Below, in pieces: positions 25,659 through 31,120 of a stretch of 64,000 nt of DNA. Within the stretch, counting starts at the first letter, position 1. Every line of letters begins with the position of its first letter. A program made the translations under genes and the position numbers. The stretch is from assembly GCF_016937515.1 (NCBI RefSeq), contig NZ_JAFHKM010000002.1, positions 3,405,001 to 3,469,000 of the forward strand, read 5' to 3'. The stretch is from Cohnella algarum. GTDB lineage: Bacteria > Bacillota > Bacilli > Paenibacillales > Paenibacillaceae. The notes below the pieces were generated by a model. That model searched no databases. It saw only the letters and a list, made by a program, of their open reading frames with translations, and had not been told where the DNA came from.

Positions 25659-27760
25659 GTGGCGTTCTCGAACGGGCCGGCCCGCAATCCGCTGCGGACG
25701 CGGGAGGATATGCGCCTTGCGCTGCGCGAATTGCTGGCGCCGCTGAGGCCGCATTACAGCGAGGGGGGCGCCCGCGTCCATCTCGGCGAAGGCGCGCACG
25801 GGGCCGGTTATCCCGCCGGCGTGGCGGAACTGGAGGGGTTTTCCCGCGCGCTGTGGGGGCTCGTGCCGCTGCTGGCGGGAGGCGGGGAGGATCCGCTCCT
25901 CCCGGTCGTGCTGCGGGGGATGGCGAACGGATCCGATCCCGGCCATCCGGAGTATTGGGGGAAAGCGGGCGACTACGACCAGCGGCTCGTCGAAATGGCC
26001 GCGTTCGGCTACGCGCTGGCGCTGGCGCCGGAGAAGCTGTGGACGCCGCTCGCGGCGGAAGAGAAGCGAAGGCTCGCCGAATGGCTTGGGCAGATCGGCG
26101 AACGCTCGCTGCACGATTGCAATTGGCTGTTTTTCCGCGTTCTCGCGGGTTGGGCTTTCGCAGGGTCGGCCTGCCTTACGACGCGGACGGGATGCAGCGG
26201 GACCTTGACCGCATCGAAGCGTTCGCGCTGGGCGGCGGCTGGTACGCCGACGGCCCGGGCGGGCACAGCGACTATTACGCGCCGTTCGCGATGCATTTTT
26301 TCGGGCTGCTGTACGCGAAGCTGATGGCGGAAGACGATCCGGCGCGGTGCGGCCGGTTCAAGGAACGGGCGGCGGCGTTCGCCCGCGATTTCGTTTGCTG
26401 GTTCGCGGAAGACGGGTCCGCGCTGCCCTACGGGCGGAGCCTGACGTACCGGTTCGCGCAGTCGGCGTTTTGGGGCGCGCTCGCTTACGCGGACGTCGGC
26501 GTTTATGCCCCGGGCGTCGTCAAGGGCATCGTCCTGCGCAACCTCAGGCGGTGGCTTTGCCAGCCGGCGTTCAATGCCGACGGAACGCTGGCCGTCGGCT
26601 ACGCGTACCCGAACCTGGTCATGGCGGAAAACTACAACTCGCCGTGCTCGCCGTATTGGGCGCTCAAGGCGTTCCTGCCGCTGGCGCTGGCGGACGACCA
26701 CCCGTTCTGGCTTGCCGACGAGGAGCCGCTTCCCGATTTGCCGAGCCGTTCGGTTCAGCGGGCTCCGCATCTCGTCGTATGCCGCCGGCGGGAGACGGAC
26801 CACGTCGTCGCCTTCAACTGCGGCCACGGCGGCACGAACGAGCATACGCACGCCGCGGCCAAATATGAAAAGTTCGCGTACTCGACCGCGTTCGGGTTCA
26901 GCGTCCCGCGAGGCGAATGGGGGCTTGCCCAGGGCGCGTTCGACTCGACGCTGGCGCTGAGCGAGCGGGACAACCTGTTCCGGGTTCGCCGTCTCAGCGA
27001 AGAGACCCGGCTGTCAGGCAACGTGCCGTACAGCCGGTGGAAGCCGTGGAGCGACGTCGAGGTGCGCACGTGGCTCTTTCCCGGGCTGCCTTGGCATGTC
27101 CGGGTTCACCGCGTGCGGACGGCGCGGCCGTTGACCGCGGCCGAAGGGGGCTTCGCGCTGCCAGCCGCGGCGGATTTGCGCACGGAGAGAAGCGAGGGGG
27201 CGCCGTGCGCGGCGGATCTGCGGGCGGCGAAAATCGAGGGCGGGCCGTTCGCGGCGGATTTGCAGGCGGCGAAAAGCCGCGAAGCGCCGTGCGCGCCCGC
27301 CTCGTCAGCTTCGGCGACCTCGACTGCTTCCGGCCCGATAGCTCCGCCGGTTGCCATAGCTTTGCCGCTATCGATTGCCTTGCCCGCCTCGCCGGTTTCA
27401 GCGGCTTCGCTAGCCTCGATTGTCTCATCCGCCTCGTCCGTTGCGGCGAATTCGACCGTCTCAGCGGCAGTGAGGGGGGCGGCCGCTTCGTCGGCCGCAG
27501 CGGCGGCAACGCCGGAGCTGTCGGCGTTTGCCCGCTGCTCCTTCGGCGCGAGCGGCATACGCGGGCTGCGCGGCTACGGGCGGGCGGAGCTCGTGTTCCC
27601 GCAAGCGAACACGAACGTGCTGCATCCGCGCACGGTCATTCCGACGCTTCTGGCAGACCTCGATCCGGGCGTGCACTGGCTCGTTTGCGCCGTGATGGGC
27701 GAGCCGAACGGGTCGGGCGAGGGTCGCGCGAACGGTTCGCCCGCGGGCGCGGACGGCTAG
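25659..27760 (+). pseudogene. DUF2264 family protein, interrupted by a frameshift
   Basis: A GTG start follows AAGGAGGG. The first frame to about 26150 contains GMANGSDPGHPEYWG and HDCNWLFFRVL. After one missing base near 26147-26153 the protein continues as LGFRRVGLPYDADGMQRDL and then GGWYADGPGGHSDYYAPFAMHFF. DUF2264 proteins have an (alpha/alpha)6-barrel-like fold similar to glycan-degrading enzymes and often sit beside YesMN-linked transporters, as here. Between about 27160 and 27500 the protein holds an insertion absent from the family: three 42-bp repeats (CAADLRAAK-like) and an Ala/Ser/Pro stretch. The conserved C-terminus resumes after it. A role in processing the imported glycan is inferred. 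Confidence 0.82.
27170..27295 (+). repeat. Three 42-bp repeats inside the DUF2264 gene
   Basis: GCGGAT boxes at 27170, 27212 and 27254 begin three in-frame 14-codon units. They form part of a low-complexity insertion and resemble in style the repeat expansion at the start of cobO. Confidence 0.7.
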
Positions 27761-27815
27761 CCGTTCGACAATCGGCTTGCGCCGTCGTCGTCGATTGCCG
27801 CCCGCGCTTAACGCT

Positions 27816-27857
27816 AAAAACGCCGGAAAGACCGAGGCCGTCCTTCCGGCGTTTTTT
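27816..27857 (+). terminator. Intrinsic terminator after the DUF2264 gene
   Basis: CGCCGGAAAGAC (27821-27832) pairs with GTCCTTCCGGCG (27840-27851), with one mismatch, and is followed by six T. Confidence 0.88.
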
Positions 27858-27928
27858 CAGAGGAAATGTTGGCTCTGCCCTCCGTTCACCGCTTCTCGCC
27901 CCGCCAAGCGCCTTCAGCCGCACGCACT

Positions 27929-28143
27929 TGAGTAAAATTCACTCATCTCGCCGTCTCCGCACGCACGTTAACGCTCCAGTTGAGTCGTAATTACTCATCT
28001 CGCCCCGCCAAGCGCCTTCAGCCGCACGCACTTGAGTAAAATTCACTCATCTCGCCGTCTCCGCACGCACGTTAACGCTCCAGTTGAGTCGTAATTACTC
28101 ATCTCGCCCCGCCAAGCGCCAGCAGCCGCACGCACCTGAGTAA
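27929..28143. repeat. Palindromic 52-bp repeat array, left part (interrupted by IS110)
   Basis: Two unit types alternate every 52 bp. Type A carries TGAGTAAAATTCACTCA (27929, 28033, and the half unit at 28137). Type B carries TGAGTCGTAATTACTCA (27981, 28085). Each core has TGAGT/ACTCA arms and is followed by TCTCGCC. The array stops at 28143, inside a type A core, and resumes at about 29701 on the other side of the insertion element. Confidence 0.93.
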
Positions 28144-28147
28144 TCCC

Positions 28148-28350
28148 CTATGACGTTACCGTCACCGCCATAGATGAAAATGTGGTCGTACGCATCCTTT
28201 TATCCTTCTTACATTCTGGACAAACAGATAATGAACAGATCAAAAGACGGAAATTTATTGGTCCCCCGTTGAGTAATCCGTCTTATTGCAGTTTGCGAGA
28301 GCCGCCCATTGTCCCTAAAGACGCGTATAAACTCTCTCCTTTAGGACTGC
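28148..28350 (+). ncRNA. Putative bridge RNA in the left end of the IS110 element
   Basis: The non-coding left end holds three stems. The first is TGACG-TTAC-CGTCA at 28151-28164. The second is AGACGG / CCGTCT at 28245-28250 and 28278-28283; its loop contains TTGAGTAA (28269-28276), identical to the left half of the target repeat as seen at 27928-27935. The third is GTCCCTAAAG / CTTTAGGAC at 28311-28320 and 28339-28347, with one bulge; its 18-nt loop contains CGTATAAA (28324-28331), identical to the right terminus of the element (29693-29700). In IS110 elements such as IS621, a left-end RNA with a target-binding and a donor-binding loop guides the recombinase. Ends of the RNA are not determined. 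Confidence 0.65.
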
Positions 28351-28385
28351 ATGGTCTGTTTAATCTGAAACAAGAGGGTGTTGGT

Positions 28386-29620
28386 ATGGATGCTGTACGT
28401 CAAATTTGTGCTGGTCTGGATGTCCATCAGGAAACCGTAGTTGCATGCGTCTTGTCGGGTTCGTTGGAACACAAACCCAAGTCCGAAATCCGCACGTTCG
28501 GTACCACTACCCGCGAATTGCTGGAGTTGCAGGATTGGCTCGAGGAGCGCGAGTGCCGAGAGGTAGCGATGGAGAGCACCGGTGTGCTGTGGAAGCCAAT
28601 ATGGAACGTCCTGGAGTCCACCTGTGAATTGACTCTCGCCAATGCACGGCAGATTCAAAAGATGCCGGGACGTAAAACCGACGTTCAAGACGCACAGTGG
28701 ATCGCCCAGTTGCACCGCTGCGGGTTGGTACAACCCAGCATGGTCGCACCACAAGAAATCCGTGAGCTTCGGGACTTGACGCGGTATCGTCGCAAACTGG
28801 TGCAGCAAACGACCTCCGAGAAGAACCGTGTTCACAAAATCTTGCAGGATGCCAACATCAAGCTCACCACCTTTATGTCCGATTTGTTTGGCGTCTCCGG
28901 CCGGGCTTTATTAGACCGACTTGTCGACGGCGAGGTATTGGAGGAGGCGGAAGTTCGCCAGCTCGTCAAATCCCAGTTGAAGAAGAAAGTCAAACCACTC
29001 ATGGACGCACTGAATGGTAAACTGCTGAAACATCATCGCGAAATGATCAAGTACCACCTGGAGCACCTGAAGTTTCTCGAGGATCAAATTGGGCGGTTAG
29101 AAGAGAAAGTTCAAGCGCTGATCCAACCATACGAAGAAGAGGTGAAATTGCTAGATACGATTCCCGGCATGGATCGCACAGCGGCAATCACGCTGCTGGC
29201 TGAAATTACGCCTAATGCGGCTAAGCATTTCTCGTCAGATGCCAAGCTGGCCTCTTGGGTCGGTGTAGCCCCTGGGAACAACGAAAGTGCAGGCGTAAAA
29301 AAAAAGTTAAAGCCCGTAAAGGGAACAAACATGCAAAAGGGATCTTATGCCAAGCGGCATGGGCAAACGCTAGAAGCAGCAACCGAATTGGCGACTATTT
29401 CAGGAGGGTAAGAAAGCGCCGAGGTGACCAAAAAGCAGCTGTCGCCACAGCCCATCTGATTTTGCGAATCGCCTATGCGATGCTTCGAGACCGGGTAAAT
29501 TACCAGGAAATTGAATCCACCGTATTTCAGGAGTCGACCTCCAAGATGGTGGAACGTTTAACGAAACAGTTGCACCAGCTTGGATATAATGTCGATTTGA
29601 AACCTACTGGAACAACCTAA
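28386..29620 (+). pseudogene. IS110-family transposase, two frames joined by a -1 shift at A9
   Basis: The ATG at 28386 (AAGAGGGTGTTGGT before it) opens MDAVRQICAGLDVHQETVVAC, the RuvC-like DEDD domain with Asp in GLDVH, Glu in AMESTG, and the DVQDAQ pair. The C-terminal Transposase_20 domain begins DTIPGMDRTAAITLL and includes GNNESAG, probably with the catalytic Ser. At 29299-29308 a run of nine A followed by G (A AAA AAG) breaks the frame: frame one stops at 29411, while the -1 frame carries the conserved KGNKHAKGILCQAAWANAR and ends at 29620. The shift could be programmed (-1 slip or transcript slippage), decay, or a lost A in sequencing. Confidence 0.88.
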
Positions 29621-29700
29621 ATTTTAAAAAAATTAGGGTTGAGATTTCGGGGTAGTGGGTCTTTTTTTTGCCTTCTTACGGCACTTCATTTTCGTATAAA

Positions 29701-29990
29701 AATTTACTCATCTCGCCGTCTCCGCACGCACGTTAACGCTCCAGTTGAGTCGTGACTACTCATCTCGACCCGCCAAGCGCCAGCAGCCGCACGCACCTGA
29801 GTAAAATTTACTCATCTCGCCGTCTCCGCACGCACGTTAACGCTCCAGTTGAGTCGTGACTACTCATCTCGACCCGCCAAGCGCCAACAGCCGCACGCAC
29901 TTGAGTAAAATTTACTCATCTCGCCGTCTCCGCACGCACGTTAACGCTCCAGTTGAGTCGTAATTACTCATCTCGCCCCGCATACGCATG
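29701..29990. repeat. Palindromic 52-bp repeat array, right part
   Basis: After the insertion element the array continues with B (29745), A (29797), B, A and B cores, keeping the 52-bp step. Here the type B core is mostly TGAGTCGTGACTACTCA. The array ends with CCCCGCATACGCATGCTTGC at about 29976-29995, an end that recurs with small changes at the right edge of the array near 46262. No gene is seen from 29701 to 30061. Confidence 0.92.
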
Positions 29991-30061
29991 CTTGCTGCTG
30001 TCGATGGAGCTGGCGGTCGCTTTTGCCGGGGATGGTGGGCGGGAGGGCCGATTGGTTCGAG

Positions 30062-31120
30062 TCACTGCACGGAGTCCGAGGATGGATCGACGCTGACGAC
30101 GTCGGCCAGCTTCAAATCGATCGCGGGCGGGAGTCCGGCTTCCGACCGGAGCGAGGTTATCGCTTCGTTCAAATCGTCTTCGTCCACGAGAATATACGGA
30201 CTTTCCCAGCGCGTTTCGAGCGGAATCGATTGGATGACGTCCGGCTTCATGCTGCCGAAATTCAAAATCCAGTCGCGAAGCTCGGACTTCGGAATGTCGC
30301 TGCGCACGTTGTCGCCGACAATGTCGATAACGTCGTCCCACTGCGCCACGCCTTTGAAGGAGGCAAGCTTGCCGACGATCTGGGAAATGACCTGCTGCTG
30401 GCGGCCGTTGCGCTCAATATCGGAGGACTGCCCGGTGCCGCCGTTCGATTTGCGGTAGCGCACGAAGTCGAGCACTTCCTTGCCGCTTAGCTCCTGCACG
30501 CCCTTTTTCAGATCGATATTCGTTCCGTCCGCGTTATCCCGGTATTTCATGTCCATATCGACATCGATCGTGAGCCCGCCGAGCGCATCGACTAGTTGGC
30601 TCAGTCCTTCGAAGTTGATGACGGCCATGTAATCGATCGGCAGCTGGAACAGCTCGCTGTAAAAGTTTTTCGTATTGGCGATCGCCGTCTCTTTGTCTTT
30701 ATTGTAAAAATAAGCGTAATAGTAGTTCGCCTTGTGGTCCTCCAGCGTCTTCGGTTTCAGATGCATATCGCGGGGCAGGGAAACGATTTTGGCGGTATGG
30801 GTTTGCGGGTTCAGACTTGCGAGCATCAGCACGTCCGTGTTGAGCGTCCCGCCGCTGCCCGACCGGGAATCGACTCCCGCGAGCAGAAACGTAATCGCCC
30901 GGGGCGACTCCTCCGCTTCCGGCTCGGGTTCTTCCGATGCCGCCGGAGCGGAAGCCGAAGGCGACGGATCGTTCGGCGCGGCGATTTGATTCAGGGCCGA
31001 ATCCGTTTTGTACACCAGGTATCCCGCATAAGCGGCGACACCGATCACGACGATGCATAAAAAGACGCCGACGCCGAGCATCGTTCGGCGAAGTTTGGTT
31101 TTCGGAAATTTGAGTTTCAT
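30062..31120 (-). CDS. LytR-CpsA-Psr (LCP) family protein
   Basis: A 352-residue protein with a basic N-terminus, one membrane helix (about 13-34), a Pro/Glu/Ser linker, and an LCP domain from about residue 80: TFLLAGVDSRSG, TDVLMLASLNP, VSLPRDM, and VLDFVRYRKSNGGTGQSSDIERNGRQQ with the conserved Arg/Asp set. LCP enzymes transfer undecaprenyl-linked polymers (teichoic acids, other glycans) to peptidoglycan on the outer face of the membrane. The ATG follows GGAGGATTACG. It is downstream of the bactofilin terminator and so probably has its own promoter. Confidence 0.93.
   Translation of the reverse strand: MKLKFPKTKLRRTMLGVGVFLCIVVIGVAAYAGYLVYKTDSALNQIAAPNDPSPSASAPAASEEPEPEAEESPRAITFLLAGVDSRSGSGGTLNTDVLMLASLNPQTHTAKIVSLPRDMHLKPKTLEDHKANYYYAYFYNKDKETAIANTKNFYSELFQLPIDYMAVINFEGLSQLVDALGGLTIDVDMDMKYRDNADGTNIDLKKGVQELSGKEVLDFVRYRKSNGGTGQSSDIERNGRQQQVISQIVGKLASFKGVAQWDDVIDIVGDNVRSDIPKSELRDWILNFGSMKPDVIQSIPLETRWESPYILVDEDDLNEAITSLRSEAGLPPAIDLKLADVVSVDPSSDSVQ

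Follow-up and report, generated by a model that had tools for sequence, protein, structure and literature searches.

The window, a 64,000-nt stretch of the Cohnella algarum genome (assembly GCF_016937515.1, contig NZ_JAFHKM010000002.1, positions 3,405,001 to 3,469,000), contains an insertion sequence at positions 28144 to 29698, with a core dinucleotide AA flanking it on each side. All parts of the element and its flanking targets given below lie on the forward (+) strand. The genome holds five copies of the element, and its limits were set from the four copies that retain both ends, together with uninterrupted repeats beside the copies. The left junction reads TGAGT-AA followed by TCCCCTATGACG, and the right junction reads TTCGTATA followed by AA and the right target. 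Across the copies, the left target is (C/T)TGAGT, then core AA; in the window it is CTGAGT (28136-28141) plus AA (28142-28143), the left half of a host repeat, and TGAGTAA occurs in all five copies. The right half of the repeat supplies the right target, AATTTACTC (29701-29709), which is replaced by ATATTACTC, AAAATACAC, and AAATTACCC in the other three copies. No target duplication beyond the short AA was seen when the copies were compared with neighboring uninterrupted repeats. The left terminus, or right donor (RD), is TCCCCTATGACGTT (28144-28157), and the right terminus, or left donor (LD), is CGTATA (29693-29698) plus core AA (29699-29700). In the families compared below, a YATG motif lies 4 to 5 nt past the core in RD in 24 of 25, with CACG in L121.

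A noncoding left end of 242 nt (28144-28385), which carries a putative bridge RNA as judged from copies, alignment, and fold, precedes the transposase gene, while the right end is short, extending 78 nt past the stop at 29620, to 29698. The original prediction had placed the left end of an IS110 element with a shared core AA at this location; the comparison of copies returned the same limits, and that with uninterrupted repeats the same core. An Rfam search over 27600-30200 gave 0 matches. Palindromic repeat arrays, which are the element's targets, lie on both sides (27926-28137 and 29701-29980), with TTGAGT...ACTC units spaced at about 50 and 104 bp. Many more copies of these repeats occur in the genome (84 query matches, mostly repeat pieces). 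Two of the other element copies are irregular. In the fifth copy, L005 (C2:4151373-4152923), the right terminus is replaced by flanking repeat sequence, so that the left donor is lost. L004 (C2:2337312-2339000) has two tandem right ends separated by 70 nt; a TTAGGG stretch adjoins the inner one and is also found just inside the right end.

The domain search identified a first frame with DEDD and Transposase_20 domains at 28386-29411, 341 amino acids to the stop, and an overlapping open reading frame at 29255-29620 contains the C-terminal part of the transposase. The intact copy L002 scored 97.5 bits for PF01548 (cutoff, 29), 69.9 for PF02371 (21.3), and 264.6 for NF033542 of NCBIfam (140); the fragment in the window scored 97.4 and 47.7 bits for the two Pfam models. 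Directly after an ESAG motif, the copy in the window has a run of nine A (29297-29305). The run is one base longer in each of the other four copies, and three of these encode a protein of 411 amino acids; without that base, the first frame stops at 29411. Because the 10 copies inspected in the L104, L108, and L116 families likewise stop in the first frame and continue in the -1 frame after nine A, slippage at the A-run may be part of normal transposase expression. Runs of eight or nine A directly after an ESAG-like motif, with a stop in the first frame soon after and the protein continuing in the -1 frame, were also noted in L104, L108, L112, L116, L120, L122, L137, and L139, hinting at programmed slippage or frameshifting in these rows. 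The run length varies, with eight A in L113 and L114 versus nine in L112.

To compare guides with insertion sites, genomes of the same family were searched with the transposase, which gave a match in 74 of 394 at an E value of 1e-40. Eighty stretches and further loci were oriented, and copies were compared within 20 groups to define limits. Several groups (e.g., G262, G043, G208, G198, and G205) gave no clean right end in this comparison, and for other right ends the left donor guide (LDG) served as the search sequence. Twenty-five families had a readable left end and RNA region, the core being AA in 19 and AG in 6. Left limits of single-copy families were set with the left target guide (LTG) in view; a rule blind to the LTG gave the same limit in 20 of the 25 and differed by a single base in 2, and in the remaining 3 it identified no site. 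Rows dropped were L124 and L112 (near-duplicates of L080 and L104), L031 (the same as L134), L022/L030 (left flank unreadable), and L133 (left end mostly lost), along with the right flank of L118 (two right-end matches) and the left end of L115 (string not found). Outside the counts are L033-L049, L138, L159, L160, and L182-L185, as well as second stretches (L050-L079, apart from L071) from loci that were already in use or from relatives that were taken no further. As the families are related, the permutation numbers below are not strict probabilities, and background column pairs exceeding a z score of 2.8 numbered 118 for the target and 217 for the donor. The close relative L022/L030 (75% identical) has damaged ends and a left flank that does not fit its own LTG.

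The putative RNA is predicted to fold stably. For 28234-28362 the z score was -4.27, and for the full left end, 28144-28385, it was -3.90, each reached by 0 of 200 shuffles. RNAalifold on 16 AA families, among them L022, which is outside the guide counts, returned a single closing stem that encompasses both domains, a stem for the target loop that carries an inner hairpin, and a donor stem adjoining the closing stem. The closing stem P1 pairs AACAGATCA (28234-28242) with TGGTCTGTT (28352-28360), and six of its nine pairs show compensatory changes. Within it, the target-loop stem is formed by AGACG (28245-28249) and CGTCT (28279-28283), and the inner hairpin between the target guides (28259-28268) has three pairs, 100% paired but with no double changes. 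The donor-domain stem joins TGCAGT (28287-28292) to ACTGCA (28346-28351), with compensatory changes in six of seven helix pairs, and a donor hairpin, GTC...GAC (28311-28322), is paired in 87.2% of cells with double changes in two of three pairs. When the donor hairpin was included, 94.9% of 431 cells were paired in the 16 families, and double changes occurred in 16 of 27 pairs. The covariation score of this fold was reached by 0 of 500 shuffles, and when partners were slid by one to three columns, only 29 to 42% of cells paired. The number of further pair types was not above that in shuffles (125/500). The stable stems of the original prediction, their conservation among related left ends, and its order of target loop before donor loop were thus borne out by the fold and, for the order, by the guide positions.

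Guides for both target strands covary with the insertion site in the families compared. In the target loop, the LTG, TTGAGT plus core AA, occupies 28269-28276, where TTGAGTAA had been proposed as a guide for the left target. Segment 28270-28276 matched left target plus core at 7/7 positions in 22 of 25 families and at 6/7 in the other 3; over 82 copies, the match was 7/7 in 62, 6/7 in 19, and 5/7 in 1. Among the 45 strongest column pairs, 28270-28274 equaled left-target positions -5 to -1 at frequencies of 0.88 to 1.00 (about 0.3 expected). The base after the LTG core (28277) equals the first RD base in 23 of 25 families, the exceptions being L152 and L155. The right target guide (RTG), GAAATTT at 28250-28256, is the reverse complement of core A plus the right target AATTT(xC). 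In the same set of 45 pairs, positions 28252, 28253, 28254, and 28255 were complementary to right-target positions 4, 3, 2, and 1 at 0.61, 0.70, 0.63, and 0.83, respectively, and 28256 to the second core base at 0.92. Here the original prediction had read AAATTTAT (28251-28258) as a copy of the right target in the same orientation. That reading is incorrect; it arises because AAATTT is palindromic, and nonpalindromic relatives show the reverse complement.

Because the alignment places the RTG one base off in L100, L144, and L148, the guide order was evaluated with a register-free test in which family labels were permuted. For the reverse complement of core plus right target (21 families), the mean longest match in the 5' strand of the loop was 4.83 versus 3.24 expected (z score, 8.2; 0 of 2,000 permutations), compared with 3.11 versus 3.02 in the 3' strand (z score, 0.7; 488/2,000). 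For left target plus core (25 families), the 3' strand gave 7.10 versus 3.78 (z score, 13.1; 0/2,000), and the 5' strand gave 2.53 versus 2.79 (z score, -1.6; 1,908/2,000). The order in the target loop is therefore right guide, hairpin, left guide, and the matches exceed chance, as had been claimed for the two 8-nt strings. Families with core AA alone gave 0/5,000 for both the RTG (14 families) and the LTG (19), as did multicopy families alone (12 and 13 families); the six AG families were weaker, with 10/5,000 for the RTG and 74/5,000 for the LTG. The fit of right targets to the RTG is imperfect. The element's own four targets match at 6, 5, 4, and 4 of 6 positions, the fit is low in L032 and L121 (3) and in L135 (2), and only one of four targets fits well in L148.

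In the donor domain, the LDG, CGTATA plus core AA (28324-28331), lies 3' of the small donor hairpin. The string CGTATAAA, which had been noted both here and at the element's own right terminus (29693-29700), is present at both positions. The LDG matched LD at 7/7 positions in all 20 families whose right end was located. This count is partly by construction, since the LDG had itself served to find the right ends in the first place; in the element's own family and several others, the limits rest on copy comparison apart from that search. The 20 include the variants GTATTAA, GTACAAA, GTAAAAA, and AGGATAG, and three more families (L122, L136, and L137) have ATAAAAA both as LDG and at the expected right-end distance. 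In L023/L051, no LDG match was found 880 to 1,700 nt from the gene start, and the sequence of L071 reaches only 1,036 nt from that point. L051 has no recognizable right end. Columns 28325, 28326, 28328, and 28329 equaled left-donor positions at 1.00, again among the 45 strongest pairs. The best five-position window for the LDG had a z score of 7.3, reached by 0 of 400 permutations; the z score is the better guide, as windows with a z score of about 4 also gave 0/400.

A search for a right donor guide, as complement or copy of core plus left terminus on both sides of the donor loop, gave nothing clearly above background. The complement of the left terminus scored 25/500 in the 5' strand and 483/500 in the 3' strand, and the copy in the 3' strand scored 29/500, the values of 25/500 and 29/500 being the strongest. 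The association of 28291 with RD position 4 (0.92 versus 0.33) was not taken as a guide, because this column lies within a structural stem. The right-hand guides had originally been described as less clear. This holds for the donor loop, where no right guide covarying with the left terminus was found, but not for the target loop, where the RTG is present on the 5' side.

The two ends also share a subterminal inverted repeat, GAAAATG (28176-28182) pairing with CATTTTC (29687-29693). Matches of 6 to 9 bp were found in 23 families (mean, 7.35 versus 6.57 expected; 3/5,000), with changes on both sides in L122 (GAATATC/GATATTC), L116, and L032. The repeat is unevenly placed, lying 33 nt inside the limit on the left, compared with about 6 nt on the right, and for the copy in the window alone, 13 of 300 left-end shuffles match it.

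We interpret the locus as an IS110-group insertion sequence whose left end probably encodes a bridge RNA with a variant layout (probability of about 0.86). The fold has a single closing stem around two domains, one for the target and one for the donor. Of the two target guides, the one on the 5' side is the complement of core plus right target on the top strand, and the one on the 3' side is identical to left target plus core, so that it would pair with the bottom strand. In the donor domain, the guide 3' of the hairpin equals the element's right end plus core. An RNA made from this region would bind the transposase; its target domain would select TTGAGT-AA repeats, and its donor domain would recognize the joined ends of an excised circle. 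The enzyme would then recombine both at the 2-nt core, yielding LT-AA-RD and LD-AA-RT. The observation behind the original prediction is hence confirmed, and its interpretation is partly supported. An element aimed at a repeat family and a variant bridge RNA layout had both been suggested; same-genome copies do sit at the same left half of the repeat, and the layout is RTG-hairpin-LTG. Guides were also found to covary with flanks across the related families.

Were the RNA of the standard IS621 type, the 5' right guide would be a coincidence of the palindrome AAATTT. The copy in the window is ambiguous on its own, since AAATTT is its own reverse complement. However, nonpalindromic relatives show the reverse complement: GTAGCGT versus AA-CGCTAC in L023 (target taken from neighboring repeats), GCCAAAT versus AA-TTTGGC in L108, GACTTT versus AA-AAGTC in L132, and GAACTTCT versus AG-AAGTTC in one of four copies of L148. 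The IS621 order, with the left guide 5' and the right guide 3', gave no signal in the target loop in the permutation test described above; within the limits of sequence covariation, this argues against it, and we regard this explanation as very improbable. About equally improbable is that the folded left end is a mere transposase leader, i.e., a regulatory RNA, with guide matches that are relics of past insertion junctions. The region does precede the gene, and the RNA is putative, but the guides track targets across families, the stems are kept by compensatory change, and same-genome copies have one RNA in common while sitting at sites that share their left half.

A more serious alternative, which we still consider unlikely, is that the element belongs to the IS1111 family, or bridges IS110 and IS1111, with its RNA region upstream of the gene. 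In published comparisons, the RNA region of IS110-type elements lies upstream of the gene and that of IS1111-type elements downstream, with exceptions, and their target-guide orders are opposite (PMC11187229). In IS1111 seekRNAs, the top-strand match lies 5' of the bottom-strand match, and in ISEc21 the reverse holds (PMC11187229). The Cohnella element has the IS1111 order, with the top-strand match 5' in the target loop, and its subterminal inverted repeat is conserved. Its loop plan is also seen by eye in L161-L163, which likely represent an IS1111-type element in this genome, and rare IS1111 members with an upstream region are named in PMC11187229. The conserved repeat led us to weight this alternative up slightly and to lower the probability of the main reading from about 0.87 to the value given above. 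Against it, the RNA region precedes the gene; the inverted repeat, which is short and uneven in its placement, is matched by shuffles of the window copy's left end at the rate given above, and repeats of 7 to 17 bp are described for IS1111. The protein of 411 amino acids (L002) falls within the 395 to 455 amino acids of the subgroup with IS110 itself and outside the 330 to 350 of IS1111 (PMC11187229). L161/L164 lie outside the clade of the study element in the transposase tree, though deep forks there join long branches. We file the locus as an IS110-group element with a variant layout rather than as an IS1111 member.

In this tree of 41 transposases, which is midpoint rooted and in which long branches meet, the AA families fall on one side of a branch (support, 98/97), the four AG rows fall on one side of another (100/99), and IS621 and three other enterobacterial plasmid elements stand apart (100/98).

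The IS621 bridge RNA (PMC11208160 and PMC11208158) shares with the Cohnella element an RNA upstream of the gene, a target domain before the donor domain, a 2-nt core, a left guide that pairs with the bottom strand and a right guide that pairs with the top strand, and insertion into palindromic repeats (REP for IS621, according to a reference-list title). In IS621, the guides are LTG A50-U58, RTG G77-G80, LDG A123-C130, and RDG A157-G165 (PMC11208158), and the published target order of both IS621 and ISEc21 is left guide 5' and right guide 3' (PMC11208158 and PMC11187229). By eye, the IS621 copy L178 has ATCGGGCCT 5' and CGTAG 3' of the hairpin, which fits the published LTG and RTG; its left flank is not a clean target, and only the right guide could be compared with a flank. 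IS621 differs in that the left guide is 5' of the hairpin in both loops, in its CT core, and in its 5' stem-loop and 326-amino-acid protein, whereas in the Cohnella element the left guides are 3' of the hairpins, the core is AA or AG among its families, one stem encloses both loops, the protein has 411 amino acids (L002), and a right donor guide was not found in the donor loop. The LDG accordingly follows a small hairpin here and precedes the stem-loop in IS621. The ISEc21 seekRNA (PMC11187229) is likewise of IS110 type and upstream, but its top-strand match is 3' of the bottom-strand match rather than 5'. The IS1111 seekRNAs of ISEc11, ISPa11, and ISKpn4 (PMC11187229) share the 5' top-strand match and a subterminal inverted repeat with the Cohnella element, in which the repeat is short and uneven in position; apart from a few exceptions, their RNA regions follow the gene, and that of the Cohnella element precedes it. 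IS110 itself is not among the elements tested in the sections consulted of PMC11187229. ISArsp3 (IS110-like, L184), a single copy outside the counts, has 38% protein identity and, by eye, a left-flank copy, AAGTGAGTTT, 3' of a hairpin upstream; its right guide is not clear by eye.

The study branch joins an upstream RNA with the IS1111 guide order, so guide order and RNA position are separable. This combination was not found in the text of the literature searched, figures aside (among them Extended Data Fig. 10 of PMC11208160, which depicts three layouts of IS110 type), including the consulted parts of PMC11208160, PMC11208158, and PMC12045711. The branch extends over transposase matches in 74 of 394 genomes, with the layout read in 25 families, and the sequence comparisons suggest that the wiring of these programmable DNA-inserting elements differs in one branch. 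Guides designed for it by IS621 rules would be put in the wrong places. A tentative possibility is that the long-transposase IS110 branch is a strand mirror of IS621, with left guides 3' in both loops. The idea stems from the gene-strand core AA or AG, which reads TT or CT on the opposite strand, i.e., (C/T)T, with the second T fixed as in IS621, where it is explained by a main-chain contact in the structure (PMC11208158). The bottom strand might then be cut and exchanged first, and polarity, not the side of the gene on which the RNA lies, would determine guide order. Counter to this, the longer guide is still the left one. The branch offers natural guide and target sets, along with a testable question, namely, which DNA strand is cut first.

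L161-L163, the likely IS1111-type element with a downstream RNA region, has by eye the loop plan ..ATTCC-ATTAGGG-hairpin-CCCCG-TAAAGGAGC. Its left guide, TAAAGGAGC, resembles the left flanks, which contain AAGGAGC in three of three cases, and, also by eye, two of the three right flanks resemble a Shine-Dalgarno sequence followed by ATG. Given these flanks, this element may insert into ribosome-binding sites.

A CRISPR spacer in the same genome (L029:1501-1532; C2:2852289-2852320) is identical to the first 32 nt of the element, including core AA. A host array thus matches the left terminus of an element that is present in five copies. The repeat of this array is one that we take to be of type I-C, and a cas8c-like gene (TIGR01863) is located elsewhere in the genome (C2:745641-747488).
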